Positions 6,221 through 64,000 of a stretch of DNA of 64,000 nucleotides are shown piece after piece. Source of the stretch: Anas platyrhynchos (lineage: Eukaryota; Chordata; Aves; Anseriformes; Anatidae); assembly GCF_047663525.1 (NCBI RefSeq), contig NC_092602.1, forward strand, positions 5,463,501 to 5,527,500, in the 5' to 3' direction. Under the pieces are notes generated by a model that saw nothing but the letters and a program-made list of their open reading frames with translations, was not told where the DNA came from and ran no database searches. How positions within the stretch are numbered: the first letter of the stretch is position 1; every line of letters begins with the position of its first letter. The translations under genes and the position numbers were made by a program.

Positions 6221-9200
6221 CTACTTCATGCCGCTGCGCAGCACCTGGTTGGCGGCGATGAGCATGACGCTGATGATGAAGGCGATGGCGAAGGCGCAGA
6301 TGAGGCTTTTGCGCACGCACGTCTGCCGGATCTGCTGGCTGGAGCAGGCTGCGGGGACAGCCGGCGTCACCCCCACCCCGCCGTCCCCACGTCCCCCCCC
6401 AGCTCCTTAACCCCCCCCCACCCCATACCCCACGCCCCGCTCACTCTCCACGTCCACGGGGCACTCCTCGGCCGTGCCCATGTGGCTCTCCTCCTCCGTC
6501 ATGATGATGTTCTCGATGTCCTTCATGGAGAGGTGCTCGCAGAAGGTGTCGTACAGCAGCCGCTTCAGCTCGTCCACCGTCAGCTTCTGCATGTCGCACT
6601 GCGGGGCGGACGGGTGGGCTCGGGTACCCCAAGTTGGCCCCCCCCGGTGCCGGGGGGCTGCTCGCCTCGCCCGAGCCTCGGCGGAGCGGGGCTGGGGGCT
6701 CCAGCACCCAAGGGTGCTTGGTCACAGGCCGGGGTTCAGGTCGCTGTGCCCAGGGCGCAGCCTGACCCTAAATATGGCCCTAGAACGCAGCCTGGCCCCA
6801 AAGGTGACCTTAACTCAAAGTTTGAGCCTGACCCCAAACCTGCCCCTGACCCCAATTCTAACCCCAGCCTGAGCCTGGCCATCACCCTGACCCCAGCCCT
6901 AACCTGGAGGCTGACCCCAGGCCCAACCCTGCCCCTAACCCTAAACCCAGCCCCAACCACAGCCTGAGCCTGACCCTGACCTGAGCCCTAACCCCAAGCA
7001 AACCCTGACCCTGAGCCCGACCCCAAGCTCAGCCCCAGCCCTGACCCTCACCCTGACCCTAGCCCTAACCCCAGCCCCAAGCCTTACCTTGACCCCGACC
7101 CCAACCTCAAACCCGACCCAATCCTAACCCTGACCCCAACCCAGCCCCGCCCCGGTGTCCCCGGTGTGCGGGTTGGGGTCGGGTCCCCCCCTACCTTCCA
7201 GAAGACGGTGTCGAAGTCCGTGCCGTGGAACTTCTCCGGGATGCCCGAGGTGGACAGCTTGGGGCCCAGCAGCGTCACGAACTCCTCGAAGTCCACCTGC
7301 CCGTCACCTGCGGGACACGGAGCCGGCGTCACCCCGACACGAGGACGAGCGTGTCCCCTGTCCCCCCCTCAAATGGGGACCCTGAGAAGTGTCCCCACGG
7401 CAGCGTTTTGGGGGGACGCCGCTGGGCTTGGTGGTTTTGGTGGGACCCCGCTCCAGGGTTTGGCACTTTGGGGGCTCCAGTGCCACCCCCCTGACCCTGG
7501 GGCTTCACCGAACGGGGACCCCACACTGCTGGGGGACCCCAGTGCCAGCCAGGGACCCCAAAATCCACCTGGGGACCACGACACCAGCTGGGACCTCCCG
7601 CACTGCTCAGGACCCCGGCAGCAGTTGGGGACCCCCAGGAGCGGCTGGAAAGCCCAGCTCCAGCCGGGACCCCCATGCCCCAGCCCCTAAAACCCCACAG
7701 AAATGGGGCCGGGCTGCCCTCGTGGGGAGGAGGACATCAGCCCCCGGGGCTGTCACGGCGGCACTAACGATGAGTAATGGAGGGAGCCGCGGCTTGGCAG
7801 CCTCGCCTGAAAGGCTTTTAAATGGGGAAAAAAAAAGAAAAAAAGAAAAAGGAATCCAATAAATTAACGCGCTCCTTAAGGTCCCGGTGAGCACGGGAGT
7901 GACGGGGAGGGCAGGGCCACGGGGTGCAGGGCCATGGGGTGTGGGATCTGGCACCAGGGTGTGGGATCCAGCCCTGGGGTGTGGGATCTGGGCCGGGCAC
8001 CCCAATCCCAGGGGGGTTGGCCAGGTCAGGACGCCCCCGTCCCACCCCGGACCGGTTCCAGCCCCGTTAAATCCTCCCGAATGGAGCCACGGGGAGGAAG
8101 AGGAGGGTGACGGACGAGGCTCCGGGCACGAGGCAGGACCCGAACCGGGCCCCTCCAAATCCAGCAGTGATGGGAGAAGGGGGGGGGGGAGCAGCACCGG
8201 GGGGGTGCCGGGGGTCCCGTGCCGGGGTCCTACCGTCCATGTCGAGGCGCTGGATGATGACCTCGAGCTCCACCTCGTTGGGCATGTAGCCCAGCGAGCG
8301 CATGGCCGTGCCCAGCTCCTGCTTGGAGATGAAGCCGTTGCCGTCCCGGTCGAACACCTTGAAGGCTTCGCGGATCTCTGCGGGGGAAACGGGGCTCAGC
8401 CCGGACACCCCAAAAATCCCCCCCCCTGACCTCCCCCAGGCCAGCCGCTCGCCCCCCGCAGCGGGGAAACTGAGGCACGGTGGGGCTGGGCGCATCCCGC
8501 TCCTGGGCACCCAGCGCGGGGCCGGCACCGGTGCCGAGCCCCAAATATCCCGAACCCGCGGTGCTCGACGCCCTGCCGCCCCGTGGGGAAGAGCTGGGGG
8601 GAGAAAGTGAGCAGATCTGGGGGTTCTGGCCCAAAATGCAGCCCCTGGGTGCTGCGGGAGGACGGGGGCAGCTCGGTGGGTGCCGGCCGCCCTAAAGCCG
8701 CGCTCAGCCCCGTTTCCCGGAGGACCACTGGGCAGCATGGGGTGGTTTTGCCCAAATCGCTGCTTTTTAGGGGATTTCCTTCCTCTTGGATCTCCCCCGG
8801 CCAGCAGAGCCCGAGCCAGGCTGAGGGAGTTGAGGGCTCCACATGTGGCAGCGAGGACTTGCACTGGGGGAAACGCGGAATTGGGCTGAAATCGACCCAA
8901 ACTCAACATCGTGCCCCAAAACCACGGGGATGGGGTGGCCTTTGGGGTCTTGGGGGGTGGCATGTCAGCGCAGCAGCCGGTAAGGCCGCCTTGGGATGTA
9001 AAACGCCGTGTTTGGGAGCGGTGCTAAAAACATGAAGTCTCATGCCGGGTGGTTTCCCCCTGCTCTGAGCCCCCAGCCCAGCCGGGTGCCGTCTGAGACG
9101 TCCTGCGAGGCGTTTTGGGGTGAATTTGGTAGGTTTTGGCCTGCTGGCTCGACAGCTTTGCTTCTCCCTGCCAGCCCCCAAAAACCAGGCACAGGGGGCT

Positions 9201-10826
9201 CGGGGCCACCCCCAAGGCTCAGGGGGAGCCAGCAGCGGGTTCCCCCCCCTGCATGGTCCCTCCGTGGGGTCACCTTGGGGGTCTCGAGGGCCGTGGGTCG
9301 TGGCAGGAGCACCCCGTTGGTGCACCGCACGCTGGGTGTGTGTGTGTGTGCAACACTGCAATGGGGCTGTGCACGCTCACTGCAGCAGTGCCCTGCTTGT
9401 GCACGCACACACACACACCCCGAAGTGATGCCGTGCTCGTGCACGCACATGTGCACGCCTTGCAGCGATGCTGTGCTTGTGACGCACACACACACGCCTT
9501 GCAGCCACGCTGTGCTTGTGGTGCGCCCTTTGCAGCCACGCTGTGCCTGTGCGTGCATGCAAACAGCTTGCAGCGAGGCTGTGCCCGTGCATGCACAGCC
9601 CGGCACCGTGCTGGACCTGTGTGTGCACAGACACTTCGCAGCCACGCTGTGCTTGTGCACCCACAGGCACCTTGCAGTGCTGCTGTGCGTGTGCGTGCAT
9701 GCAAACACCTCGCAGTGACGCTGTGCTTGTGCATGCACAAACACCTTGCAGTGACGTTGTGCTTGCATGCACAGACACCTGACAGCCACGCTGTGCTTGT
9801 GCGTGCACAAACACCTTGCAGTGATGTTGTGCTTGTGCATGCACAAACACTTTGCAGTGATGCTGTACCTGTGCATGCACACCCAGACACCTTGCAGTGA
9901 CGCTGTGCTTGTGCACACACACACAGAAACCTTGCAGCGATGTTGTGCTTGTGCACACACACACAAACACTTTGCAGTGATGTTGTGCTTGTGTGCACAG
10001 ACACCTTGCAGTGATGTTGTACTTGTGCATGCACACCCAGACACCTTGCAGTGACGCTGTGCTTGTGCATGCACACACTAACACTTTGCAGTGATGCTGT
10101 GCTTGTGCATGCACACCCAGACACCTTGCAGTGACACTGTGCTTGTGCACACACACACACAACCACCTGAGCGCCACGCTGCACTGGTGCATGCACACAC
10201 GCACCCCCTGCAGCAGTGCTGTGCACGTGAACCCAGCTCCCCCCCCAGCACTGCACGTGTGCGTGCACACACCCTGCAGCGGGGCCGTGCGTGTGCACAC
10301 AGACGTGCACACACACGTACACGTGCCGGGGGGGCTGCAAACAAGCACACACACACTCACACACACACACGGGGGCGTGAAGCTGTAGCAGAGCCCCCAG
10401 CCCTGCACACTGCGGTTTGGGGCCCCCCGGCTGCGTGTCCCCGTGCCTCAGTTTCCCCTGCGGTGCCCGGAGGCTGCGAGCAGCCCCCTGGGGGCCGCGT
10501 CCCCGTCCCGCAGCCAAACTTTTGGGGCGAAAAACCCCCTTTTCGGGGCAGCCCGGCCCTGTGCATGCCACGAGTGGGCTCCCCGACCTCACCGTGCCAC
10601 GCGTGGGGATGGGGGGGGGACCGATGGGGCCAGGCGGAGCGCGGTGCGGGTAGGGGGGTCCCTCCCTCGGGGACCCCCCAGGGCTCACCCCCAGCATCCC
10701 CCCCCCCCGGGGCTCACCCTCCAGCTCGTCCTCGGGGATGTCCACGGGGTGCTGCTCTGCCAGCAGCGGGGGCACGCTGTAGATGCCCCGGTACATCAAC
10801 GCGGCGGTCACCGGGTGGAACGGCAT
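6221..10826 (-). CDS. CABP7: CABP7 (calneuron II), complete, five coding exons
   Basis: Calcium-binding protein 7 is a tail-anchored EF-hand sensor of the Golgi and vesicles; its family inhibits PI4-kinase IIIbeta at low calcium. Exons in transcript order: 10718-10826 (ATG at 10826), 8234-8377, 7195-7307, 6445-6598, 6221-6348 (TAG at 6223). All junctions are GT-AG with matching phases, giving 648 nt and 215 residues, the usual length. EF-hand 1 loop is at residues 46-57 (DRDGNGFISKQE) and EF-hand 2 at 82-93 (DMDGDGQVDFEE, split over exons 2 and 3). Both keep the D/N/G/E ligands. The C-terminal EF-like half is degenerate, as in the family. A hydrophobic segment at about 189-210, followed by a short polar tail, is the membrane anchor. 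CABP7 is co-oriented with NF2 immediately upstream, as in human. Intron 1 carries a minisatellite; the intron at 6599-7194 carries telomere-like repeats. Confidence 0.97.
6755..7150. repeat. Degenerate telomere-like CCCTAA/CCTGACC array in a CABP7 intron
   Basis: Dense short repeats of CCCTAA, CCCTGA, CCCCAA and CCCAGC types fill the intron between coding exons 3 and 4. Runs such as AACCCTAAACCC and CCCTAACCCC resemble vertebrate telomeric CCCTAA, but the array is heavily diverged and mixed with other spacers. Confidence 0.75.
9330..10375. repeat. GT/CA-rich minisatellite in CABP7 intron 1
   Basis: About 1 kb of roughly 35-48-base units, about twenty copies by eye. The core reads CTTGCAGTGAYGYTGTGC and is followed by CTTGTGCATGCAC with a variable CA-rich spacer. 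Many units end in the 10-base palindrome GTGCATGCAC. Unit length varies through the spacer, so the array is not a fixed-frame coding repeat. Alternating purine-pyrimidine stretches (CACACA, GTGCATGC) favour left-handed DNA. A related degenerate block is at about 14460-14640. Confidence 0.85.
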
Positions 10827-11236
10827 CTTCGGAGCCCAAAGTTTCGCCGGCCGAAAAAAAATTGCCCAGAAGAAATCCGAGCCTAACCCGGGACGGGGTC
10901 GGCCCCCCCCCAAAAACCCAAACCCACCTCCACCTCCCCCGGCCCCCCCCCCCCCGAGCAGCCCGTCCCCGCGGCCTCAGGGCGGAGGGGGGGGGGGGCC
11001 GGGGCCGGCTCCCAGCATCCAGGAGCCGCTTTTAAAGGCCGGGACCGGCTCCGGAGCCCCCCCGGCACCCCCCCGGGAGCTGCCCCTTGGGGCCCGGCAT
11101 GGCGGGGCCTCCGCCGCAGCCTCCTGCCGCTGCCCAAGTTTGGCGGAGCAGGAGCCGGGGCTCGGCGCTCGCTGCCCGCCCCCAGCCCCAACCCCCGCCC
11201 CCCGGCCGCGCCTCCCCGGTACCGGGCTGGGGGGTA
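10827..11236 (-). promoter_or_regulatory. CABP7: CABP7 promoter / 5' leader CpG-rich region
   Basis: This GC-dense, CpG-rich block lies directly upstream of the CABP7 ATG (transcription leftward), between coding exon 1 and the GGGGAT array. It has long C-runs and G-runs on the + strand (for example at 10900-11000) and no TATA box. Placement of the promoter is inferred from position and CpG density; the start site is not visible. Confidence 0.5.
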
Positions 11237-12180
11237 AAAAGGGGGGGGGGAGAGGGAGGGGGGGGTGGGGATGGGGATGGGGAAAGGAAGGGATGAGGAT
11301 GAGGATGAAGATGAGGATGGGATGGGGATGGGGATGGGGATGGGGATGGGTGGGGAAGGGGGTGTGATGGGGATGGGAATGGGATGGGGATGGGGTGGGG
11401 TAGGGAGAAGGATGGGGATGGGGTGGGGAAGGGAAGGGAAAGGGATGGGGATGGGGATGGGGATGGGGATGGGGATGGGGATGGGGATGGGGATGGGGAT
11501 GGGGATGGGGATGGGGATGGGGTGGGGTAGGGTAGGGAGAAGGATGGAGATAGGGATGGGATGGGGAAGGGAAGGGAAAGGGATGAGGATGAGGATGAGG
11601 ATGGGATGGAGATGGGATGGGAAAGGGGTGGGGTTGGGATGGAGATGGGGATGTGGTGGGGATGGGAATGAGAATGGGATTGAGGATGGTGATGGAATGG
11701 GGATGGAGATAGGATGGGATGGGGATGGGGAAGGGAAGGGAAAGGGATGAGGATGAGGATGGGATGGGGATGAGGAAGGGATAGGATGGGATGGGAATAG
11801 GGATGGGGAAGAGGATGTGTTAGGGGTGGGATGGGATGGAGAAGGGGATGGGGTGAAATGGGGATGGGATGGGATGGGATGGGATGGGATGGGATGGGAT
11901 GGGATGGGATGGGATGGGATGGGGAAGGGGATGTAACGGGGATGGGGGTGAGAATGGAATTGGGATGGGGATGGGATGGGATGGGATGAATGGAGATGGG
12001 GTTGAGGTGGTATTTCGGATGGGATGGGAATGAGGAAGGGAATGTGTTAGGGATGGGGATGGGGGTAGGAATGGATCTGCTGAAGGAATGGGGAGGGGAT
12101 GGGATGGGGATTGGGAACAGGATGGGGATGGGGATGGGATGGGGATGGGATGGGGATGCTGATGAGGAGGAGGGATGGGA
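11237..12180. repeat. Large GGGGAT / GGGAT tandem array upstream of CABP7
   Basis: Nearly 1 kb of GGGGAT hexamers mixed with GGGAT pentamers (pure pentamer run at about 11866-11922), GAGGAT and GGGAA variants. The clean hexamer stretch at about 11442-11522 is regular. The + strand is almost pure G, A and T with no C, so it is strongly strand-asymmetric and rich in G-quadruplex patterns. Long open frames on both strands here are repeat artefacts. Confidence 0.92.
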
Positions 12181-17706: not shown

Positions 17707-50188
<32,482 letters not shown>

Positions 50189-50539: not shown

Positions 50540-51600
50540 CGGGCACTAGGACCCGGGGGGGAGGTTATGGGGTTGGGGGGCTGTGGGGTGGCCATGGGGG
50601 GCCCATAGGGTGTGGGGGGGCTATGGGGTGGCCATGGGGAGCCCATAGGGGTCTGTGGGGGGCTATGGGGTTGGGGGGGGCTATGGGGTGTCCATAGGGA
50701 GCCCATAGGGTGTGGGGTGTCTGTGGGGGGCTATGGGGTTTGTGGGGGCTATGGGGTGTCCATAGGGAGCCCATAGGGGGTGGGGGGGGCTATGGGGTTT
50801 TTGGGGGGCTATAGGGTGGGAGGGGTGTTTGGGGGGGCTATGGGGTTTGTGGGGGGCTATGGGGTGTCCATAGGGAGCCCATAGGTGTCTGTGGGGGGCT
50901 ATGGGGTTTGTGGGGGGCTATAGGGTGGGAGGGGTGTTTGGGGGGGCTATGGGGTTTGTGGGGGGCTATGGGGTGTCCATAGGGAGCCCATAGGTGTCTG
51001 TGGGGGGCTATGGGGTTTTTGGGGGGCTATAGGGTGGGAGGGGTGTTTGGGGGGGCTATGGGGTGTCCATAGGGAGCCCATAGGGGGTGGGGGGGCTACG
51101 GGGTTGGGGGGGCTATGGGGTGGCCATGGGGCACCCATAGAGGGTCTGCGGGGGGCTATGGGATGGGGGGGGTTGGGGGGGGCTATGGGGTGTCCATGGG
51201 GTGTCTATAGGGAGCCCATAGGGTGTGGGGGGGCTACGGGGTTTGTGGGGGGCTATGGGGTGGGAGGGGTGTTTGGGGTGTCTATAGGGAGCCCATAGGG
51301 TGCCTATAGGGTGTGGGGTGTCTGTGGGGGGCTATGGGGTTTGTGGGGAGCTATAGGGTGGGAGGGGTGTTTGGGGGGGCTATGGGGTGTCTATAGGGAG
51401 CCCATAGGGTGTGGGGTGTCTGGGGGGTGCTATGGGGTTTGTGGGGGGGTTATGGGGTGTCCATGGGGTACCCATAGGGTGCCTGTGGGGGGTAGGAGGA
51501 CTATGGGGTTTGTATGGGGTTATGGGGTGGGGGGGTTATGGGGTGTCCATGGGGTGCCCATAGGGCGTCTGTGGGGCGTCTGTGGGGTCACAGGGTGTCT
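50540..51600. repeat. G-rich minisatellite (GGGGCTATGGGGT family)
   Basis: Tandem units built from GGGGGGCTATGGGGTTTG and TGTCCATAGGGAGCCCATAG recur for about 1 kb. The + strand is strongly G-rich. Reading frames on both strands are repeat-generated (Gly/Trp-rich or Pro/His-rich). Confidence 0.9.
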
Positions 51601-51890
51601 GTGGGGTGCCCACAGTGGGGTGGCCACGTTGGTGTGGGGTGTCCGTGTTGTTATAGGGTGGCCGTGTCCCTGTGGGATGTCCGTGTTGGTGTGGGGTGGC
51701 CACGATGCTATAGGATCTCCACATTGTGGGACCTCCTTGATTTTATAGGATATCCATGATGTTATGGGATATCCACGATGTTATGGGGTGTCTGAGTTGT
51801 TATGGGACGCCCACGTTCCTGGGGGATGCCCATGCTGTTGTAGGATCCCCATGTTCCTGTGGGATGAGTGTGGGACGTCCCCGTTCGGTG
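51601..51890. repeat. GTGTCCGTGTTG / GGGATGTCC minisatellite
   Basis: This is a second, less G-extreme repeat block with units such as GGATGTCCGTGTTGGTGTGG and GATGTTATGGG, following directly on the previous array. Confidence 0.75.
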
Positions 51891-51989
51891 GCCATCCCCG
51901 TCTGTCCCAGTCCGTCCCAGTCTGTGGTGTCACTGTGGGGTTGGGACGGGGGCGGGCGCTGCCCCGTGCCAGCCCCCTGTAGGGTCACG

Positions 51990-52400
51990 GCTGGGCTGGG
52001 ATAACGGGATTGGGATCAGCGCTGGGATAACGGGATTGGGATCAGCACTGGGATAAAGTTATGGAACTGGGACTGGGGTTGGGGTAATGGGATTGGGATC
52101 AGCACTGGGATAATGGGACTGGAATCAGTACTGGGGTAACGGGACTGGGACCAGCACTGGGTTAAGGGTGCGGGACTGGGATTGGGGCTGGGGTAATGGG
52201 ACTGGGACCAGCACTGGGATAAAGGTATGGGACTGGGATTGGGGTAATAGGATAATGGGGTGGGACTGGGATCAGCACCGATGGCGGGGAGGGGGGTAAT
52301 GGGGTGGGACTGGGAGTGGAACTGGGATAACTGGGTGGGACTGGGATCAGAACCGGGACCGGCACTGGGTAACGGGACGGGACCGGGACCGGGATAAGGG
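51990..52400. repeat. GGGATAACGGGATTGGGATCAGCACT minisatellite
   Basis: Units of roughly 25-30 bases sharing GGGACTGGGATCAGCACTGG and GGATAA elements recur about a dozen times. No coding signal is seen. Confidence 0.85.
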
Positions 52401-52577
52401 ATTGGGGCCGGGCAGGATGGGATCGGGGTGGGCGAGGAGCCCCCCCAGGACCCCCCTATCCCGGCCCCGCGCCCCCGCAGGCCGCAGAACGGGGCCTCTG
52501 TGTGCGGGGCGGCGGGGGCTGAATGGGGCCATTCATGGGGCCCCCCCTCCCTAAATCCCCCCCTCCCCACCCTACAG

Positions 52578-54801
52578 CCGCCCCCGCTGGGACCCCATGG
52601 CCTGCAGCCACACGGCCCCCCCCCGGCACCCCAATACCCAGGTGGGGGGCTGGGGGAGGTATGGGGGGGGGTCCTGGGGGGCTATGGGGCCAGGGGGAGA
52701 TATGGGGGAAAGGGGAGATATGGGGGGGTCCTGGGGGGGGTCCAGGGGAGCTATGGGGTGGGGGGCAGGGGGGTCCAGGGGAGCTATGGGGCCAGGAGAA
52801 GATTTGGGGGGGGGATCCTGGGGGGTCCAGGGGAGTTATGTGGGGCCAGGGGGAGATATGGGGGGGTCCAGGGGAGCTATGGGGCCACGGAGAGATATGG
52901 GGGGGGGGTCCTGGGGAGATATGGGGGCAGGGGAAGATATGGGGGGGGGTCCGGGGGGGTCCAGGGGAACTATGGGGGGGCCAGGGGGACATATGGGGGG
53001 GGTCCTGGGGGGCTATGGGGCCAGGGGGAGATATGGGGGGGTCCAGGGGAGTTATAGGGGCCAGGAGCAGCTATGGGGCCAGGAGAAGATTTGGGGGGGG
53101 GTCCTGGGGGGTCCAGGGGAGCTATGGGGCCAGGGGGAGCTGATATTAGGGTATGGGGGGGGGGGGGTCCAGGGGGCTCGAGGAGCTGTTGGTAGGTAAT
53201 GGGGGGGACAGGGGGGGCTATGGGGGGGGCACAGGGAGCTTAAAGGGGTATGGGGGGGGCAGGGGGGCTTGGGGAGTTTTTGGGGTGGGGGGGGGCATGG
53301 GGAGTTATGGGGGGGGCTTGGGGTTGGGGGGCGCATGGGGGGGTCCCAAAGGGGGGACCTGGAGACTAGGGGGGGCTGTGGGGGACAAGGGGAGGTGGGG
53401 GGAGGTGTTTTGGGGGGGGGACAGGGCCCTGGGGGGGCTGTGAGCCCCCCCCCCCCCGGTGAAACCCTATTGCCAGCCCTGCCGCCCCGTGCCGAGGGTG
53501 CACGCTTTTGGGAAGGGGGGGCAGGCCGTGCGCAGGGACCCCCGAGCCCCCCCGGCCATGAGGGGCTGGCTGCACAAACAGGTGGGGCTGGGGGGGGGGT
53601 TGGGGGGGGTTATGGGGTTTGGGGGGGGATTTGGGGGGGTTATGGGGTTTGGGGGGTCTGGAGGGGGATTTGGGGGAGGTTATGGGGTTAGGGGGGATTT
53701 TTTAGAGGGGTTATAAGGTTTGGGGGAGATGGGGGGGGATTTGGGGGGTTATGGGGTTTGGGGGGCTGGGAGGGGTGGGTTTTGGGGGGGGATTTGGGGA
53801 TCAGGAGGGGGGAGGTTGTGGGATTTGGGGATCAGGAGGGTTCTGGGGGGGGTCTAGGGTTGCTGGGGGGGTTATGGGGTTTGGAGGGTTCGGGGGGGGA
53901 TTTGGGGGGGGTTATGGGGTTTGGGGGGGTCAGGGGAAGGTTACGGGGTTTGGGGGATTGAGGGGAGGGTCTGGGGGTGCTGGGGGGGTACCGGGGGGTG
54001 GGGTTGGGATTTGGGGGTGCTGGTTTAGCCCCCCCCCTTTGTGTGTCCCCCCCCCCCAGGACAGCTCGGGGCTGCGGCTGTGGAAGCGGCGCTGGTTCGT
54101 GCTGGTGGATCTCTGCCTCTACTACTACCGGGGTGAGGGGGGGGGCACCGGGGGGGGCACCGGGAGGGGGGGGCAGGAGTGAGGGGGGGGGGGGTCCTGG
54201 GGGTCTTTTTTATTTTTGGGGTGGGGTCTGAGCACAATTGGGGGACCCCAAGACCCCTTGCAGTGGGGCTGGGGGTTTTCAGGGGGGGGGGCAAAGTTTG
54301 GCAGGGTGTTTGGGGGGGGGTCCTTGAAGCCCCCCCCTCCCCGTGCCCCCCCCCCGTTGCCCCCAGACAGCAGCGAGCAGCGGGTTCGGGGGGGGCTCCC
54401 CCTGCCCAGTTATAGGATCCGCGTCCTGGGACCCTCCTCCGGTGCCCCCCGCTTCCTCTTCACGGTCAGTTTGGGGGGGGCACCCCCCTTTTACCCCCAC
54501 CCCAATAGGGGGACCCCAACCCCTTGGGGAACTGGGGTGACCCCAAACCTTTGGGACCTGGCTGACCCCAAAACCCCTTGCGAGCATGAGGGGGGGGCCC
54601 AGCCCTATAGGATGCGGCCCCCCAGCTCCTCGTTGGGATTTTGGGGTGCTGTGGGTTTGGGGGGGGTCACAGCCAGGCCCCCCCCCCGTGCAGGCGGAGC
54701 ACCCCGGGATGCGGCCCTATGTGTTTGGGGTCGACAGCCCCGCGGAGCTGAGCGCATGGGTGGGAGCCCTGCGGCGCTGCGCTGCGCCCCTGGGGGGGTG
54801 A
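52578..54801 (+). CDS. PH-domain gene of the PLEKHA4/PEPP family, five exons, apparently incomplete
   Basis: Exons, all GT-AG and in phase: 52578-52641 (ATG at 52597), 53477-53581, 54060-54132, 54367-54464, 54694-54797. They give about 141 residues. Signatures of the PEPP phosphoinositide-binding PH domain appear in order: RVHAFGKGGQAVRRDP, MRGWLHKQ, DSSGLRLWKRRWFVLVDLCL (basic KRRWF strand), GGLPLPSYRIRVLG, RFLFT, AEHPGMRPYVFGVDS, and a C-terminal helix with AWVGALRR. Remembered PLEKHA4 is the closest match, particularly AEHPGMR. The proline-rich and coiled-coil parts of that family are not seen before NIPSNAP1. If the last donor is not used, the frame stops at once (TGA 54799-54801), giving a PH-only protein of 143 residues. 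Human PLEKHA4 is on chromosome 19, so this location is unexpected. It could be a real relocated gene, a truncated copy or an assembly join. Confidence 0.72.
52650..53444. repeat. G-rich minisatellite in PH-gene intron 1
   Basis: Units combining GGGGGAGATATGGGG, GTCCAGGGGAGCTATGGGG and CCAGG are repeated, then pass into irregular G-runs. It fills the intron between the first two PH-gene exons. Confidence 0.88.
53583..54045. repeat. G-rich minisatellite in PH-gene intron 2
   Basis: Repeats of GGTTATGGGGTTTGGGGGG with GGGATTTGGGG spacers fill this intron up to the C-rich acceptor tract before 54060. Confidence 0.88.
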
Positions 54802-55318
54802 GACCCCCAAAACTGGGGGGGGTGGGGGATAGGGGGGTGTGGGGTGGGGTATTGGGGGGGGTATTGGGGGGTATGGGGGCGGTATTAGGGGATATTGGGG
54901 GGTATTGGGGGATATTGGGGGGTATTGGGGGGTATGGGAGGGTATTGGGGGATATGGGGGGATATGGGGGGGGATTGGGGGATATTGGGGGGATGGGGAG
55001 GTATGGAAGGCCTTGGGGGGACACAGGGGATATGGGGGGCACATGGGGGGGCCTTGGGGACACATGAGGGGACACATGGGGGGGACATGATGAGATTTTG
55101 GGGGCCTTGGGGATATGGGGGGACACTTAGGGGGGATATGGGGTCCTTGGGGGGGGTGGAGGGATCTGGGGGGCCTTTGGGGTCACAGAGGTGGACATGG
55201 GGGATATGGGGTGATCTGGGGGGTATGGGGGGGGTATGGGAGGCCCTGGGGGCACTCAGGGGGCTATGGGGGGGCCCTGGGGGGGGCCCTGGGGGGGGGG
55301 CCCTGGGGGGGGCCTGAC
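54802..55318. repeat. G-rich GATATTGGGGGG array between PH gene and NIPSNAP1 promoter
   Basis: GGTATTGGGG, GATATGGGG and GGGGCCTTGGGG units fill the whole space where further exons of the PH gene would be expected. I see no exon in it. Confidence 0.88.
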
Positions 55319-55680
55319 CCCGCCCCCTCGCCCCGCCCCCAGCCCAGCCCCGCCCCCGCTTCCGCCCCCCCCTCCGGAGCCCCGCCCCCCGGCGGCTCGA
55401 CCAATCAGCGGCAGCCTCCCGCCTCGACCCTCGGAGGGCGGGGGACGGCGGGGGAAGACCCCGCAGCCAATCGCGCGCCGAGCTTCGCGAGCGACCCTTC
55501 CGAATTGGCTGAGGGCGACCGAAGGCGGGGGCGGGCGGCGCGGCGCGGCGGCCAATCAGGATCACGGTGCTGCAGGCCAGCTTCTGATGGAGAGGGGGCG
55601 TGGCCAATCATAGCCCCGCCCATCCCGGAAAAAGGGGGCGTGGCTTGTGAAGACCCCGCCCCCCGAGCCCCCTCGGCAAG
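55319..55680 (+). promoter_or_regulatory. NIPSNAP1: NIPSNAP1 CpG promoter with CCAAT cluster
   Basis: A sharp change from G-repeat to balanced CpG-rich sequence marks the promoter. It has four CCAAT boxes in the forward orientation (55401, 55467, 55552, 55604) and one reversed ATTGG (55504-55508). Two GGGGGCGTGGC GC boxes (near 55594 and 55635) flank the last CCAAT. No TATA box is seen. The start codon is embedded in AAGATGGCGGC (55678-55688), a match to the YY1 consensus often found at start-proximal positions of TATA-less genes. Factor occupancy is inferred. Confidence 0.7.
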
Positions 55681-58607
55681 ATGGCGGCGGCGCTGCGGGG
55701 GCTGCGGCGGGGCGGCGGCGGCCGAGGGGCGCGGTGAGAGGGGGGGGCGGGAACCGAACCGGGAGCGCCCCCCGGGGCCCCACAGAGCCCCCGGGCTGCA
55801 GCTGCCCTCAGGGCCCGGCCGCTCCCACAGGCCCAGACCCCCCCCAATAGGCCTCAGCCCCCCCCTCAGGCCCTGTCCGCCCCTCAGGCCCCGGCCCCCC
55901 CCCCCCCTTAAGGCCCGGACCCCCCCCACAGGCCCAGAAGCCCCAGATCCCATCTCCCCCTCAGGCCCAGACCCCCCCCAGACCCCGTCTCCCCCTCAAG
56001 CCTACTCCCCCCATAGGCCCAGACCCCCCCCCCCTATAGGCCTAGGCCCCCCATAGGCCCAGCCCCCCCCATAAGCCCAGAGCCCCCCCCAGACCCCGTT
56101 CCCCCTTCAGGCCCACCCCCCCATAGGCCAGACCCCCTCTCTATAGGCCCAGGCCCCCAGTCAGGCCCAAACTCCCCCAGACCCCCCCTCCATAGGCCCA
56201 GAACCCCACCCCCAGACCCCATCTCCCCCTTCAAGCCCACCCCCCCCAATAGTCCCAGACCCCCCCCATAGGCCCAGCCCCTCCCCCATAGGCCCAGCCC
56301 CCCCCCCAGGCCCTTTTCCCCTTCCCAGCTCCCCCCATCCCACCCTCCGCTCCCCCTTCCTGCCCTCCCCACCCCCAATCCCTTCCTTTCTCCCCCCCTC
56401 CCCATCCACAGAACTGCTTGGGGGGTTAAAGGGGGGGGGTTTGGTGTCGCCCCGTGCCCCCCCCCCCGTGTGTGTACGGGGCCGTTGACCCCATCCCGCG
56501 CCGTTAATACATGACCAGGGCAAAGGTCTGGCCCCGCTGCGCCGCCTCTGTGTGCTCTGTGCTGCGCCGCAGCCCCTTGGGGGGGGCCCTAGGGGATGAA
56601 GGAGACCCCCCGGGGACACATGAGGGGGGTGGGGGGGGGAAAAGGGGTCCCGGAGGAGGGCTGGGGAGGTTCTGCGCCACCTCCACCCCCCAGCAGGCCG
56701 CAGCGGTCATTCCCTGTGTCGTCCCCTCCCCCCCGAAATGCAGGGCGTACTCGCGGGACAGCGAGGGCAGCTGGTTCCGCTCCCTCTTCGTGCACAAGGT
56801 GGACCCCCGCAAGGACGCCCACTCCAACCTCCTGTCCAAGAAGGAGACCAGCAACCTCTACAAGATCCAGTGTGAGTGCCCCGCGGGCGGATGGGGGGGG
56901 AAATGCCCCCCCCAGAACTCTGCCCATCCCGTTTTGTGCCTCGATCCCCGCCGTGGCAACCGACAGAGCCCCTCTCGCCCTCTTTCCCCCGCAGTTCACA
57001 ACGTGAAGCCAGAATGCCTGGATGCCTACAACAGCCTGACGTGAGCCCCCCGCTGCCGCCCCCTGTCCCACTGGGGTCTTGGGGGGGGGGGCTGAGATGG
57101 AGGGAGACCCCGCAATTGGGCTGGGAGGGCAAATGGGGGGGGGGTCAGGAGCATTGCGGGGTAAAAAAATTCAAAAAATCAGCTCTCCTCTCGCTGGGAG
57201 AGACCCAAGTGCTGCCCACCATGCCCCAGCCTCCCCCTTTTTCATATCTGGGGGGGTCCCAGGAAGACGGGGCCGCCCCCCCACCGCCCCCTGTGCCCTG
57301 AGCAGGGAGGAGGTGCTGCCCAAACTGCACTTGGACGCCGATTACCCCTGCGACCTGGTTGGGAACTGGAACACGTGGTACGGCGAGCAGGACCAGGCAG
57401 GTGAGTGCATCCTTCACGAGGACAGAACCCGCGAGGGGGGCACCCAGAGCCTCCCCCGTCACCCCCCTCCTCGCCCAGACCCCAACGCTGGGCAGGGAGA
57501 GGACGCGGGGCGAGCCCTGGTGTCTCGGGGGGGGCTCTGTGGGGTTCCTGCTGCCTTTCCCCCCACCCCACACCTCTCTGCTCCCCTCCCAGTGCACCTC
57601 TGGCGCTTTTCGGGGGGGTACCCGGCCCTGATGGACTGCATGAACAAGCTGAAGCAGAACAAGGTAGCGCCCGAACCGGCAGCGCGCCGCCCTCCCGCGG
57701 CCCCCCCCGGGCTGCCCCCGCTGGCGGCAGCAGCTGCCCCGGCTCTGGCTGTCCCCAGGAGTACCTGGACTTCCGCAAGGAGCGCAGCCGCATGCTGCTG
57801 TCCCGCAGGAACCAGCTGCTGCTGGAGTTCAGCTTCTGGAACGAGCCCCTGCCCCGCCAGGGGCCCAACATCTATGAGCTCAGGACCTACAAGCTCAAGG
57901 TGAGGCCCCCTCTGTAGGGTTTGGGTGCCTGGTGCTGGTTCTGCGGGGCCAGAGGGGGGTTTAGGGGCTGTTTGGGGTCTGGCCGCTCACCCTGTGGGTT
58001 TTTCCTCCCTTTCCAGCCAGGGACCATGATCGAGTGGGGCAACAACTGGTGAGTCGGCCCCCCCGGGAGCGCGGCGGCCGCCCTCAGCGCAGGGACACGG
58101 TGTGGGGGACACCTCATGCGACCCCTCCCCGCGTTCCTGCCCCCGTTGCCAGGGCTCGGGCCATTAAGTACCGGCAGGAGAACCAGGAGGCCGTGGGCGG
58201 CTTCTTCTCGCAGATCGGGGAGTTGTACGTCGTGCACCACCTCTGGGGTAAGCGGGCTGCCTCGCGCCCCCCCTGCCACCACCGTAGTGACCCCGGCTGT
58301 GCCCTGCACGCACCCAAAGCCCCAAAGTGTGTGGGGTTACGGTGGATTTGGGGTACGAGCCTTCTCCTCCCGGCAGCCTACAAGGACCTGCAGTCCCGCG
58401 AGGAGACGAGGAACGCGGCGTGGCGGAAACGGGGCTGGGACGAGAACGTCTACTACACGGGTGAGCGTGTGGGGCGAGGGGGGGGCCACACCGTGACCCC
58501 ACAGCCCCAAGCACGCCGTGATCCCATTCCTCTCTTCTACAGTCCCGCTGATCCGCACGATGGAGTCACGGATCATGATCCCGCTGAAGATCTCCCCACT
58601 GCAGTGA
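55681..58607 (+). CDS. NIPSNAP1: NIPSNAP1, complete, ten coding exons
   Basis: NIPSNAP1 is a mitochondrial protein implicated in metabolism and, when exposed on damaged mitochondria, as a mitophagy tag. Exons: 55681-55733, 56744-56871, 56995-57040, 57306-57400, 57593-57663, 57759-57899, 58017-58048, 58153-58247, 58377-58460, 58543-58607. All are GT-AG with matching phases; 810 nt give 269 residues (human 284; the difference is in the N-terminal leader). The start gives an Arg/Gly/Ala-rich, acid-free leader ([14 protein letters not shown]), as expected of a mitochondrial targeting sequence. Conserved blocks include [82 protein letters not shown] and the C-terminal [13 protein letters not shown]. 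Synteny beside NF2 favours NIPSNAP1 over NIPSNAP2. Intron 1 is C-rich low complexity; the other introns are short. Confidence 0.97.
55740..56400. repeat. C-rich low-complexity tract in NIPSNAP1 intron 1
   Basis: Repeats of CCCATAGGCCCAGACCCCCC and relatives. In contrast to NF2 and the PH gene, the sense strand of this first intron is C-rich, not G-rich. Confidence 0.88.
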
Positions 58608-58801
58608 CCGGACCCATTCCGGGGGGGGGCCATATGGGGCCGAGTCCCCGCGCCCCCATCCCCGGCCCTATAAGGGTGCTGCAGGACCCAGCCCGGCGCT
58701 GGGGCAGCCCCGGAGTCCGCTGGGGTGCTGGGGAGGGGCTGCGGAGGCGGGGCAGCTGCTGTTAATTACCGCTAATGACGTGCTAATGAGGGGCGGGACC
58801 A

Positions 58802-58807
58802 ATTAAA
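58802..58807 (+). terminator. NIPSNAP1: NIPSNAP1 polyadenylation signal ATTAAA
   Basis: ATTAAA, the commonest variant signal, lies about 195 bases after the NIPSNAP1 stop in the only AT-rich patch of the intergenic space. It is followed by a TG/CT-rich stretch (TTGCTGCTCTCTGTGTCTG), a plausible downstream element. Confidence 0.65.
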
Positions 58808-58829
58808 TATTTAATTGCTGCTCTCTGTG

Positions 58830-59146
58830 TCTGGGCGCCCCCCCCCCTCCCTCCCCCTTCCCGCGTTCCCTGCGGCGCGCCGGCGGGACCGAGGCCACGC
58901 CCACTGAGTCCACAAGCCACGCCCACCGCACCGAGACCACGCCCACACGGTTGCTTTAGGCCACGCCCCCTTTGGAGGACCGCCCGCTAGGGGGCGCTCT
59001 GTCCTCTCCGGGCTACTCTCGTCTGCTCCGCGCGTCACTTCCGGCCGGCGGCGTGAGGCGGCTCAGGGGGGCACCGGGAGGGACCGGAGGGGACCGGGGA
59101 GGGGGGGAGGAGGAGCGGGGCCGGGCCCCTCGCAGCGCCCCCAGCC
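58830..59146 (+). promoter_or_regulatory. THOC5: THOC5 promoter: CACGCCC array, CTCF-like site, ETS-like site
   Basis: Between the NIPSNAP1 polyadenylation signal and the THOC5 ATG are four CCACGCCC elements at 58895, 58917, 58937 and 58961 (GC/CACCC-box type, KLF/Sp family). Next is CGCTAGGGGGCGCTCT at 58986-59001, a close match to the CTCF core. CACTTCCGG at 59036-59044 is the reverse complement of the ETS consensus. The block is CpG-rich with no TATA box. All factor assignments are inferred from motif match only. Confidence 0.6.
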
Positions 59147-62100
59147 ATGGCCTCGGACGCCGGCAAGAAGCGGAAACCCAAAGTGATCCGCACCGACGGG
59201 GCCACGCCCGAGGGCAAGCGCGGCAAGGCGGAGGGCGAGCAGGTAACGGCGGGGCCTTCACCGGGCCCTCACCGGGCTGGGCCCTGCTGGAGGCCTCAAG
59301 GCGAGGCCCGGGCCCTTCACAAAGCCCCGGGGGGACTCGCGGCCTCTCCTCCCCCCCCCGCAGGATGCCCGGTACTACAGCGAGGAGTGCGAGGTGGACC
59401 TGCGGGACCCCATCAAGGACTACGAGCTGTACAAGGAGACCTGCCAGGAGCTGCAGCGCCTCATGGCCGAGATCCAGGAGCTGAAGAGCCGCGGCATCAA
59501 GGACAACGTACGGGAAGCCTCCGGGGGGGTGGCTGGATGTGTAGATTATATCAAATTCCTTGATGTTTTCCCCTTAATTTGGGAGGGTCAGGAGCTGGGC
59601 TGCGTTCTGGGGAGAAATAGGGAAACAAAACAGCCTGTGTCAAGTAAAATAAGATACTATTTAGTTACAGGCATGTGGCCTCTGGCCGTGCACTCATTGC
59701 ACAGATTGGGTCACTGATCGGGGCTCCTGGGGAAGGAGCTGAGCCCCCTGTGATCTGAAAACCCCTCTGGTTATGCCCAGTGGTGACCTGGGGTGCTGGC
59801 AGCGGGAGGCCCGGCTGGGTGCAGAGCTCAGGGGCGGTGCGGCTGGGGCTCCCCCGCCACCCCCCACAGCTCCCTGCTGCCCCCAGGCCTCCGAGATCGA
59901 CGAGCGGCGCGTGCAGAGCTGCGTGCACTTCATGACCCTGAAGAAGCTGAACCGCCTGGCGCACATCCGCCTGAAGAAGGGGCGAGACCAGACCCACGAG
60001 GTACGGGGTGGGGGGCGGCCAGCCCAGGAGGGGGCTGCAGGGAGGGCTGAGCTGTGTGCTGGGTGTGTGTGGGCAGCAGGAAGCCCCAGCAGGTGGTGCT
60101 CTCTGTGATAGAAATCTGCCAGGAGGCTCTGCAGCACGGCAGAGGCTGTAATTGTGATGGATTGTACAGGAGGAACGGCTCCTGTCTGGTGTAGCAGTGA
60201 GGCAGGAAGCTCTGTCTCAGCAGCCCGCTGTGCTGCGGGCCTGAGAAGTGAATTATGGGCTCCAGAGCTTGCACCCGGACATCTCAAAGAGGTTTTCACG
60301 GTGCAGGAGCATTTATTTTCATTGTGTTGCTGGGAAACCAGGCACAGGGACAGACTGAGCCCACGTGTGTGGCCAGGACTGCCTTGTTCCTGTCCCCAGA
60401 ATACGCCCTGTCCCTGAAGGGGAACAGGATCAGTTTGCAGTGATGAGCATTTGCATTCCCAGCCCTGAAAATGACTTTTTTTATCCCCCTAAATGGCTGC
60501 ATACCCCAAAACCTATCATCCCTGGATGGTGCCAGGGGATATGCGGGGTTCAGTGAGTTTTGTGGGGTAGAAATTTATCCCCACTCACCCCGCTGAGCAC
60601 TTCCATGTGCTTGGGGTCTGTGGGAAGGGCGTCCTCACAGCTCTGGGGTCACTGCTTGTGCCTCCTGCTCTGTGTCTGTGGTGCTCACTGGCTGTGTCTG
60701 TGTCTCAGGCGAAGCAGAAGGTGGACGCCTACCACCTGCAGCTCCAGAACCTGCTGTACGAGGTGATGCACCTGCAGAAGGAGATCACCAAGTGCCTGGA
60801 GTTCAAGTGAGCTTGGCCGGGGAGGGCGAGGAAAGGAGGGGCTGCGCGTTTGGCACCCCCCCTTCCCTCACCCACTGGGTGTGCAGGTCGAAGCACGAGG
60901 AGATCGAGCTGGTCAGCCTGGAGGAGTTCTACAGCGAGGCCCCCACCGAAATCAGCCGGCCGGACATCACCCTGACCGAGCCCCACCAGCAGACCCTCGC
61001 CCGCCTCGACTGGGAGCTGGAGCAGCGCAAGAGGTGGGTGGGGGCGGCCTGCAAGGAGCCGTGGGCTGGGCTCTGCGGGCTGCCGGGTGGGATGGGCACA
61101 GAGGAGGGGTTTTTATCAGCCTTTAGGATTGGTAAAGGAAGCAGTAGGTAAGTGTGACGGAGTCCTCGCTGCAGGGAGGGGCTCTCTGGACCCGCTCTCT
61201 CCTTGGGGCTGTGCTGGCTCTGGGGCATGGAAAGGAGAGAATTAATTTTAGAGCCACTGCTGCTGTGCTGGGGGGGCAAGGAGCGGGTTTAAGCAGCTTG
61301 CTCCTTGGATCTAGCTGCCCTAAGGCAGGATCCGGCCCCCTGGGTTCCTCAGTTGATATAGGGCCGCTCGAGGAGCCTCGCTCTGGCAGCTCCTGCCCTG
61401 CTGCAAAGCAAACACCATAACTACACCCCCTCTGCACCAAGCAGCAGGTTTTTCAGGCAGCTGGGAGCAGCTTTCCCCCAAAATCAGCCTAACCCTGCCC
61501 AGCACAGCTCGCTGTGGCAGGCTTTGGGCTCTTTTCCCTCAGCACCAGCACACCCAGGGCTCTGAGTCGTGGCCAGCTTCCCTTTCCCTCAGCTTTCCAG
61601 CTTGGTAACGAGCGCTGCGTGCTGTGCTAGTGAGCTGGCTCTCAGCAGTCGACCCTGGGAGCTGCTGACACAGCACCACGTGGAGAAGCCTTTTCGGGGG
61701 CTTAGCGGGGTCAGGAGGAACCCGTTTGGGTGCTGGCAGCCGAGCTGGTGCGGGAACAGCGCTGCTGGGGGAAGTCATGGTCGCTGCCCTGCCTCGGGAC
61801 AACGCCGGGCTCAGCTTCCCCTTCCTCCTCCTGCTGCTTCTGAGCTCCTGCCTGCCTCTGCCCGCCCTTGGCCTTGAGAGCTCCCTGCGTGTCCCTGCGT
61901 CAGCTCTCCTGGTTCCTGCAGGGATTTGGGGCACCTGGGGCTGCTGAGGGGGCCGGCCCCAGTGGTGCTAACTGAATTCCCACCCCCTGTAGGCTGGCAG
62001 AGAGGTACAAGGAATGCCTGACCATCAAGGAAAAGATCCTGAAGGAGATCGAGGTGAAGAAGGAATACCTGAGCAGCCTGCAGCCTCGCCTCAACAGCAT

Positions 62101-63988
62101 CATGCAGGTACTGCCTGAGCCCTGCAGGGAAGGGAGGAGCCTCCAGGAGCAGCGTTAGGGTTGCACAACACCCACAGCCCCCACAGCCCTTCCCCTCCTG
62201 CTCAGGGGGTGTCGGGTCCCATTGGAGTGACCCCACAGGGCTGCTCCCTGCCCTGTCACCTTCTCCGGATCCCCCTTGTTCCTGCAGCAGCTCCTTTCTG
62301 CTCTCCCACGTGCCGGGGGGCGAGGGAGGCACTGAGAAGGTCGTTCATTCTGTCCCATCCCCGCTCCTGAAGCCTGTCCCTGTGTCCCCCAGGCCTCCCT
62401 GCCCGTGCAGGAGTACCTCTTCATGCCCTTCGACCAGGCGCACAAGCAGTACGAGACAGCCCGCCACCTGCCACCGCCCCTCTACGTCCTCTTCGTCCAA
62501 GCCAGCGCCTACGGGCAGGCCTGCGGTGAGCACCGGGGGCATTGGGGCTGGATTTCCGTGGAAACTCTGCCCTGGGGAGCTTTGGGGTGCTGCGGGACGT
62601 CCCGCTGTGTTCTGCTGAGCCCGGAGGCAGCGCCCTGAGGCAGCAGCATTTGAAACTTCGTTGGCTCAGCTCCGTTGGCCAGAACTGCTGGCGGAGCTGC
62701 CTGCCCGCCTCTGCCCCCGTCCTCAGCACCACACCAAGGTCGGCGGGGATAAAGGCGGCCCGGTGGTGGTGCACATCCCCCCCCCTCATGTGGAGGCCGC
62801 GTGTGGTGCTGCCTGGCAGCTCCTTGCTCCCTCTTCGTGCTATTCAGCCCCCAGCCCCTGCTGGTTCCTGATAGACGTGGTCTTTATGGCTTCTGGTGAC
62901 ACTCCCTCCAACCCCAGTGCTCTGCTTCCTCTGACCCCATCCCACCAGGAGATCTGGCCCCACAGAACCATCTGGGCAGCCTCCTCTTCCTGCTGACCCC
63001 TCGGTTGAGCTTTGTGGGGCTCTGCCTGGGGCAGCCATGGGGCTGGAGCTTTTTGGGGCAGTGCTGCAGCCAGGATTTCCTTCTGCAGGCTCCCTAAACG
63101 CTGCACGGGGTCGTGCTCCTGCAGGCTGTAGCCCCCCCCCAGGCTCCCATCTTACCACCCTGCTCCAAAGCTCTTGCTAACTGCCTGTCCCCGCCGGAAT
63201 CGGGTTGGTGACGTGGTTTCTGTGTCCCCGTGCAGACAAGAAGCTCGTGGTGGCTATCGAAGGCAGCGTGGAGGAAGCCAAAGCCCTGTACAAGCCGCCC
63301 GAGGACTCGCAGGGTGAGCAGCTGTGCCCAGCTCCTTCCCGGGAGCTCCTGGTACTCCCCCCTCTTGCAGTGCATCCATTTGGCTTGCGAGGGGGGGACG
63401 ATGATATTTGGGGGCAGCAGCGGTGTCAGATGGAAGAGCTGGGTGTGGGCAGAGCCCCTCGGCACCGTGTTCATTCCCTCTCCTCTCTCTGGGCAGATGA
63501 CGAGAGCGACTCGGACGTGGAGGAGGAGCAGACCACGGTAAGGCACGGTGATCCCAGGGCAGGGGGGGAGAGCTGGGCACCCCTGGGTGCCCCTCGGGGG
63601 GGCGAGGCTGCCTTCTGGTGTCTGCCCTGAGCACGGCACAACGAGGGGGGCAGAGCTGCTGTGCTCACACCTCTCCTCGCTCGCCTCCTGCCTGCAGCAG
63701 CCTGTGCCCTGCTCTCCTGCAGGAGCTGCCCCACTTTGTATAAATAGCCCCCGGGCCTCCCCACCTGCCCAAAACATCAGCACCAGGCAGGGATTTGGGG
63801 AGGTGGGAAGGGAAGGAGAGGACAGGAGTTGTCCAGAGCTCCCGAGGGGCAGTGGGATGGGGTCCACAGCTTCTGTTCCCCTCCCCAGAAGCGGCGCCGG
63901 CCCACGCTGGGCGTGCAGCTGGACGACAAGCGCAAGGAGATGCTGAAGCGGCACCCGCTGTGCGTCACCATCGACATCAAGTGTAAAG
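59147..63988 (+). CDS. THOC5: THOC5, first ten coding exons (3' part outside window)
   Basis: THOC5 (FMIP) is a subunit of the THO part of the TREX complex, coupling transcription and 3' processing to mRNA export in the nucleus. Exons: 59147-59242, 59364-59507, 59887-60000, 60709-60806, 60887-61033, 61993-62107, 62393-62525, 63236-63313, 63497-63537, 63889-63988 (followed by donor GTAGGC). All phases join, giving 355 residues plus one base. The ATG sits in the good context CCAGCCATGG. Visible features: nuclear signal KKRKPK at residues 7-12; helical, coiled-coil-prone stretches with [39 protein letters not shown] and [11 protein letters not shown]; an acidic [14 protein letters not shown]; and a second basic KRRRP at residue 323 onward. 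Human THOC5 is 683 residues, so about half is here. Orientation after NIPSNAP1 matches the human block. Confidence 0.97.
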
Positions 63989-64000
63989 GTAGGCGAGGGT

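Follow-up and report, generated by a model that had tools for sequence, protein, structure and literature searches.

A PLEKHA4-derived PH-domain gene between NF2 and NIPSNAP1 in the duck Anas platyrhynchos, relocated and likely truncated

A stretch of 64,000 nucleotides from the duck Anas platyrhynchos (hereafter the window; C16:5463501-5527500 in an assembly of 1.26 Gb and 42 contigs) carries, between NF2 and NIPSNAP1, a set of exons whose assignment to the PH region of PLEKHA4 is supported by sequence comparison. We consider it probable that they are orthologous to the 5' half of PLEKHA4 and that this half moved, together with its introns, into the interval between the divergent promoters of NF2 and NIPSNAP1. 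We conclude that the avian PLEKHA4 PH gene is real, relocated and, as far as the assembly was searched, single, and truncation of the relocated gene to its PH half appears likely.

A study of 2022 did not find Plekha4 in birds and concluded that all birds had lost it (PMC8983885). In February 2026, PLEKHA4 was listed among the genes that have left dot chromosomes, its move in Neognathae being from chr31 to chr15 (PMC12954441). The relocation is therefore already published, and the apparent absence of the back half at the locus is the new detail. The duck locus pins the insertion down to a site between two promoters. It also suggests the presence of the PH half alone, and the phrase "not lost but relocated", as applied to PLEKHA4 in birds, may need correcting to "partly relocated".

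The PH-domain exons and their assignment to PLEKHA4

The exons lie on the plus strand. Exon 2 (53477..53581) encodes a pre-PH segment and the first PH strand (..VHAFGKGGQAVRRDPRAPPAMRGWLHKQ), exon 3 (54060..54132) encodes DSSGLRLWKRRWFVLVDLCLYYYR with the basic strand and ends at a phase 1 donor, exon 4 (54367..54464) ends at a phase 0 donor, and exon 5 (54694..54797) encodes the end of the PH domain (AEHPGMRPYVF..) and ends at the phase-2 donor GG/GTGAGA. Together, exons 2 to 5 comprise 380 coding bases free of frameshifts and stops, all eight splice dinucleotides checked are intact, and GC per codon position (0.706/0.579/0.881) follows a coding pattern. Given E-values near 1e-38, the splice dinucleotides and the codon GC, it can hardly be doubted that the exons are genuinely coding and belong to this lineage. 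A candidate exon 1 (52578..52641, +) comprises 5'UTR and a possible ATG at 52597 (MACSHTAPPRHPNTQ), with a pyrimidine-rich acceptor and a GT donor in phase 0; it showed no likeness to a known N-terminus, and what speaks for it is the ATG and the splice signals. The first-pass annotation had described five clean exons, and the borders of all five are indeed GT-AG, with phases 0, 0, 1, 0 and 2 after exons 1 to 5; the description holds for exons 2 to 5, whose borders are also those of paralogues, and extends to exon 1 in its signals, without support from homology. Rfam and tRNA scans returned no matches.

The borders of exons 2 to 5, read from the sequence, coincide with those of three paralogous loci in the same genome, on C5, C1 and C27, which were named PLEKHA7, PLEKHA5 and PLEKHA6, respectively, through identity to the human chains. 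Exon 2 starts at the same position and in the same phase as in bird PLEKHA5, PLEKHA6 and PLEKHA7, and the intron pattern of the PLEKHA4/5/6/7 subfamily, with phase 0 before exon 2 and then 0, 1, 0 and 2, is present throughout. A retroposed copy was rejected, as introns are present at the paralogous positions. In bird PLEKHA7 (C5, about 60790515-60790700), extra open sequence precedes the last PH exon and matches a loop of the human PLEKHA7 chain.

The product of exons 2 to 5 matches the PH domain of Pfam (PF00169, E 1.3e-13) with KRRWF intact, and its closest solved structure is human PLEKHA4/PEPP1 (1upq, E 9.8e-39), ahead of PLEKHA7 (7.3e-34). When eight PH domains were placed in a maximum-likelihood tree, the window copy paired with human PLEKHA4 at support 97/96, and is therein nearer to PLEKHA4 than to PLEKHA5, PLEKHA6 or PLEKHA7; the two branches concerned (0.81 and 0.31, against 0-0.031 for bird PLEKHA5/6/7) were both flagged as long by the tree tool, and the pairing may partly reflect long-branch attraction. 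A topology placing the window copy beside PLEKHA7 was rejected (AU p 0.0177, with the same long-branch weakness). Because both branches are long, we added a count of private residues: the window copy shares 8 of the 28 residues private to PLEKHA4, compared with 0 of 11 for PLEKHA7, 3 of 19 for PLEKHA5 and 3 of 23 for PLEKHA6. A copy of PLEKHA5, 6 or 7 was rejected on the tree, on the private residues and on the finding of all three elsewhere in the genome. Both the full PEPP-type PH domain with its intact basic strand and the PLEKHA4-like identity, which had been proposed from the letters alone, are borne out by these comparisons.

Position, relocation and copies elsewhere in the assembly

The flanking genes, located with human proteins as queries, stand in the order CABP7 (-), NF2 (-), PH exons (+), NIPSNAP1 (+), THOC5 (+) and NEFH (-), which confirms the placement between NF2 and NIPSNAP1 given at first pass. 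Human chromosome 22q12 has the same flanking genes in the same order, the PH exons being the addition here, and in chicken NF2 lies on chr15. NF2 extends over 24553..50188 (-), its first coding exon lying at 50188 and the last exon to be matched at the other end, with 15 exon matches to the human query on this strand. From the NF2 ATG to the NIPSNAP1 ATG there are 5493 bp, of which 884 bp lie between the end of exon 5 and the NIPSNAP1 ATG. The window contains no N bases.

The proposed sequence of events is that the 5' half of PLEKHA4 left its dot chromosome, introns included, and landed between NF2 and NIPSNAP1, whose promoters diverge there; as the introns would have moved along, the transfer would have been by DNA and not by retroposition. 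The part at the locus has an intact PH domain and the splice positions of the subfamily; later exons are not recognised there and have little room.

The neighbours of PLEKHA4 are PPP1R15A, NUCB1 and KCNJ14 according to the passage on its surroundings in PMC8983885, and PLEKHA4/5/6/7 are named as one of the families of paralogues by which four conserved regions of the genome are marked (PMC4015844). At the duck locus, the flanks are NF2 and NIPSNAP1 in place of these neighbours. Searches for NUCB1, GYS1 and RUVBL2 across the assembly did not find them, and the matches obtained were by identity their paralogues NUCB2 (C5), GYS2 (C1) and RUVBL1 (C13); GYS1 and RUVBL2 are neighbours in the human PLEKHA4 block. 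The ancestral dot chromosome, the counterpart of human 19q13.33, is thus probably missing from the assembly at least in part, and it could carry the rest of PLEKHA4 or a complete parent gene. On C5, about 0.2 Mb separate the NUCB2-like gene from PLEKHA7 (60.58-60.79 Mb), an ohnologue image of the NUCB1-PLEKHA4 pair.

No second copy of PLEKHA4 was found in the assembly by genome-wide searches with exons 3, 2 and 5. Exon 3 gave six matches, namely the window, the PLEKHA paralogues on C5, C1 and C27, and two PH-like places that are further removed (C19:572363-572419 and C1:54655975-54656031, both on the minus strand and at 63% identity). Exon 2 gave three at E<=1 (the window, PLEKHA7 and PLEKHA5), and exon 5 matched the window and PLEKHA7. 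A second PLEKHA4 would be expected to outscore the paralogue matches that were seen. A tblastn search with the whole protein was dominated by low-complexity matches.

The 3' end of the locus and the competing explanations

Downstream of its PH domain, human PLEKHA4 has disordered regions, a coiled coil and a C-terminus that is conserved, as outlined in PMC8983885. Five pieces of the human protein (cc1, cc2, cc3, MSAQEQ and ct) were searched against 114 kb of C16, and neither the coiled coil nor the MSAQEQ region nor the C-terminus was recognised there; the matches were at chance level, the best being cc2 at E 0.065 on the minus strand inside the THOC5 gene. PLEKHA6 served as the control, the PLEKHA5 and PLEKHA7 sequences being partial and of no use for this. 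Its exons on C27 were matched by cc1, cc3, MSAQEQ and ct, four of the five pieces, at E 0.009-0.19, a weak control in that cc3 reached E 0.19 there against a best of 0.27 on C16 and cc2 missed PLEKHA6; the sensitivity of the search is limited, and a fast-evolving orthologue could escape it. Genome-wide C-terminal searches returned either one match in a poly-A tract or three at E 2 to 7 and did not return PLEKHA5/6/7 either, so that they say nothing on the missing half. The absence at the locus rests as much on space, as 884 bp are followed by NIPSNAP1 and THOC5. With the later regions of PLEKHA4, the coiled coil and conserved C-terminal regions of the full protein among them, unrecognised in 114 kb of C16 under this weak control, and with so little room, the locus is classed as a PLEKHA4-derived PH gene and not as a full PLEKHA4. 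The word "gene" in the first-pass annotation therefore stands for real PLEKHA4 PH exons, of which the PH half is what can be recognised here. A literature search found no published report of the truncation or of a link to NIPSNAP1; the single paper found to name PLEKHA4 and NIPSNAP1 together is a transcriptome and proteome study of the amyloid precursor.

The gene had been given an end at 54801, with a TGA at 54799..54801 (+) following ...CTG GGG GG/GTGAGA, one base past the donor border. At the equivalent exon end, PLEKHA5 and PLEKHA6 appear to have a phase-2 GT donor and PLEKHA7 a phase-2 GC donor, as judged up to the donors themselves; exon 5 of the window is four or five residues shorter. 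Because the paralogues appear to splice equivalently in phase 2, the exon 5 donor looks real and the TGA probably lies inside the next intron, so the proposed end probably does not hold. NIPSNAP1 (55681..58607, +) has an exon 1 at 55681-55733 that ends in phase 2, an exon 2 that starts at 56744 and a stop TGA at 58605-58607, and exon 5 would consequently join to exon 2 in frame; the joined frame reads on into NIPSNAP1, which makes an in-frame PH-NIPSNAP1 transcript possible. An acceptor-like AG ending at 55342 could open a cryptic terminal exon of 90 codons in the CpG island of the NIPSNAP1 promoter (55343..55680, +; CpG o/e 0.62-0.93 in bins from 55250). It was rejected as PLEKHA4 exon 6, as its GC of 0.811/0.756/0.722 is not coding-like and it has no PGXPP. 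For the fate of the exon 5 donor, a PH-only or short-tail product has somewhat less than an even chance in our estimate, splicing to NIPSNAP1 exon 2 is unlikely, and the remaining weight falls on exons missing from the assembly or on a non-functional gene.

These observations bear on several rival explanations. In a conjoined gene, an alternative promoter upstream would drive a PH-NIPSNAP1 protein, exon 5 being spliced in frame to NIPSNAP1 exon 2. Besides the two phase 2 introns and the continuing frame, it is favoured by an exon 5 donor with no recognised PLEKHA4 exon to join and by the poly(A) signals, the only AATAAA or ATTAAA in 54701-64000 being the ATTAAA at 58802, beyond the NIPSNAP1 stop, preceded only by two weak variants, AAAAAG at 55629 and, within NIPSNAP1 intron 1, AATACA at 56506. 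A match of phase, however, arises by chance in one case in three, and a lack of AATAAA is expected in G-rich DNA; we hold this explanation to be unlikely. Somewhat less likely still is a reading in which the stranded PH half serves NIPSNAP1 as its upstream promoter and N-terminus, a lipid-binding PH domain taking the place of the first exon. NIPSNAP1 is normally mitochondrial. If the chimera were true, NIPSNAP1 would be sent to other membranes, and the arrangement would have arisen as the escaping gene left its 3' half on a decaying dot chromosome; such a splice, if it exists, would make a domain fusion specific to birds and brought about by the relocation.

A decaying remnant, that is, a moved 5' half that has lost its function, would fit the long branch, which agrees with relaxed constraint too, as well as the unrecognised later exons, the absence of a strong poly(A) hexamer of its own and the unsupported start exon. 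The intact frame and splice sites and the high GC3 stand against it, and simulated neutral decay under assumed rates rarely leaves such intactness, which makes decay rather improbable. We likewise give little credence to a partial duplicate, in which a full-length PLEKHA4 would sit on a dot chromosome absent from the assembly and the window would hold a copied 5' half. The failure to find NUCB1, GYS1 and RUVBL2 allows that their chromosome may be missing; yet no second set of PH exons is present in the assembly, and PMC12954441 describes a transfer out of chr31 in Neognathae, and for chicken it relied on an assembly described there as telomere-to-telomere except W. A complete gene in an incomplete assembly would require the remaining exons to have been dropped or collapsed in the G-rich sequence at 54.8-55.3 kb, where the 3' spacer is 69% tandem repeat and hard to assemble. 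The remainder of human PLEKHA4 amounts to several hundred codons over many exons, which would have to vanish without a gap in a window free of N, and this seems quite unlikely. Finally, a contig join inside G-repeats could have misplaced PLEKHA4 beside NF2, as the flanks are repeat-dense. This is very improbable: the flanking gene order is unbroken, there is no N in the window, and PLEKHA4 on chr15 has been reported independently in other birds, in a published relocation from chr31 (PMC12954441, passages on the gene). Of the options left by the first-pass annotation, a genuine avian relocation is thus the best fit and is supported, and a contig join is unlikely.

Tandem repeats, predicted function and comparison with known systems

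The PH exons are embedded in G-rich tandem repeats, with stuttering-like arrays detected by TRF in spacers and introns over 50560..55330. TRF cover is 66, 69, 27 and 32% in introns 1 to 4 and 76% in the upstream spacer; each kilobase of 49-57 kb is 31-81% tandem repeat, compared with 1% in NF2 at 24-49 kb. Forty 1-kb control bins from five other places on C16 reached at most 14%, with a GC of 0.37-0.52 that is unmatched to this GC-rich, gene-dense locus. The first introns of the two long-resident genes that flank the PH exons are 90% (NF2, 49100-50075) and 55% (NIPSNAP1, 55735-56743) tandem repeat. Other repeat-dense blocks on the same chromosome lie at 9001-10000 and 11001-12000, near CABP7, and, in window-based coordinates, at 69, 74-77, 87 and 89-91 kb, around and beyond NEFH. 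That repeats mark PLEKHA4 alone was accordingly rejected: they are not unique to it, as they also occur in NF2 and NIPSNAP1 introns and in other blocks within 114 kb, and their density may reflect local GC-richness.

In simulations of neutral decay with assumed rates, the fraction of runs that remained intact was 0 to 0.00125 at 0.12-0.20 divergence and 0.0125 at 0.08. As the PH exons are intact and simulated neutral copies rarely are, we infer constraint, and the PLEKHA4 PH copy would still be under selection. Mammalian PLEKHA4 is recruited to the plasma membrane by PI(4,5)P2; its oligomerisation and clustering depend on the disordered regions and the coiled coil, and it sequesters the ubiquitin-ligase adaptor KLHL12 (PMC8458771 and PMC7333892), for which PGXPP is the binding motif (PMC7333892). 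No PGXPP was present in the protein of exons 2 to 5 or in the possible 55343 exon. The basic KRRWF strand is kept, and the predicted product would be a PH module of about 140 residues that binds phosphoinositides and has a short or borrowed tail. Without the clustering and ligase-holding parts, such a product would be expected to recognise membrane lipids still, but neither to cluster nor to hold KLHL12. A literature search found no paper on the lipid-binding residues of PLEKHA7.

Compared with known systems, the window PH domain has human PLEKHA4 (PEPP1; 1upq/1upr) as its nearest tree neighbour, at 59.8% identity over 107 columns, whereas the PH domains of PLEKHA5, 6 and 7 from the same bird are 94.9, 93.0 and 89.2% identical to their human counterparts and have PH-region exon boundaries in common with the window copy. 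Unlike human PLEKHA4, the duck locus has no recognised disordered regions, coiled coil or C-terminus after the PH domain. By its flanking genes, it would lie on chr15, the chromosome of NF2 in chicken. The avian PLEKHA4 relocated in Neognathae is the same gene on the same chromosome; the main text of that report contains neither NF2 nor NIPSNAP1, and its two passages on PLEKHA4 are silent on missing exons (PMC12954441). On dot chromosomes, stuttering has been described there as imperfect local tandem expansions that fill introns and spare exons, with medians that range over 7-93% (PMC12954441, relevant passages). The four introns of the duck locus are similarly filled with imperfect tandem repeats, their cover of 27-69% falls inside that range, and the exons are spared. 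The duck locus differs in that it lies on a non-dot chromosome and lacks exon copies above the shuffled control: pieces of exons in adjacent introns, a feature of a subset of stuttering genes, were not found above shuffles (the best of 631 matches scored 28.8 bits, against maxima of 23.3-34.4 in 20 shuffled sets). The locus thereby offers a natural transplant test of whether stuttering is tied to the sequence of a gene or to its chromosome, as the repeats are seen here outside the dot chromosomes in a gene that once resided on one.
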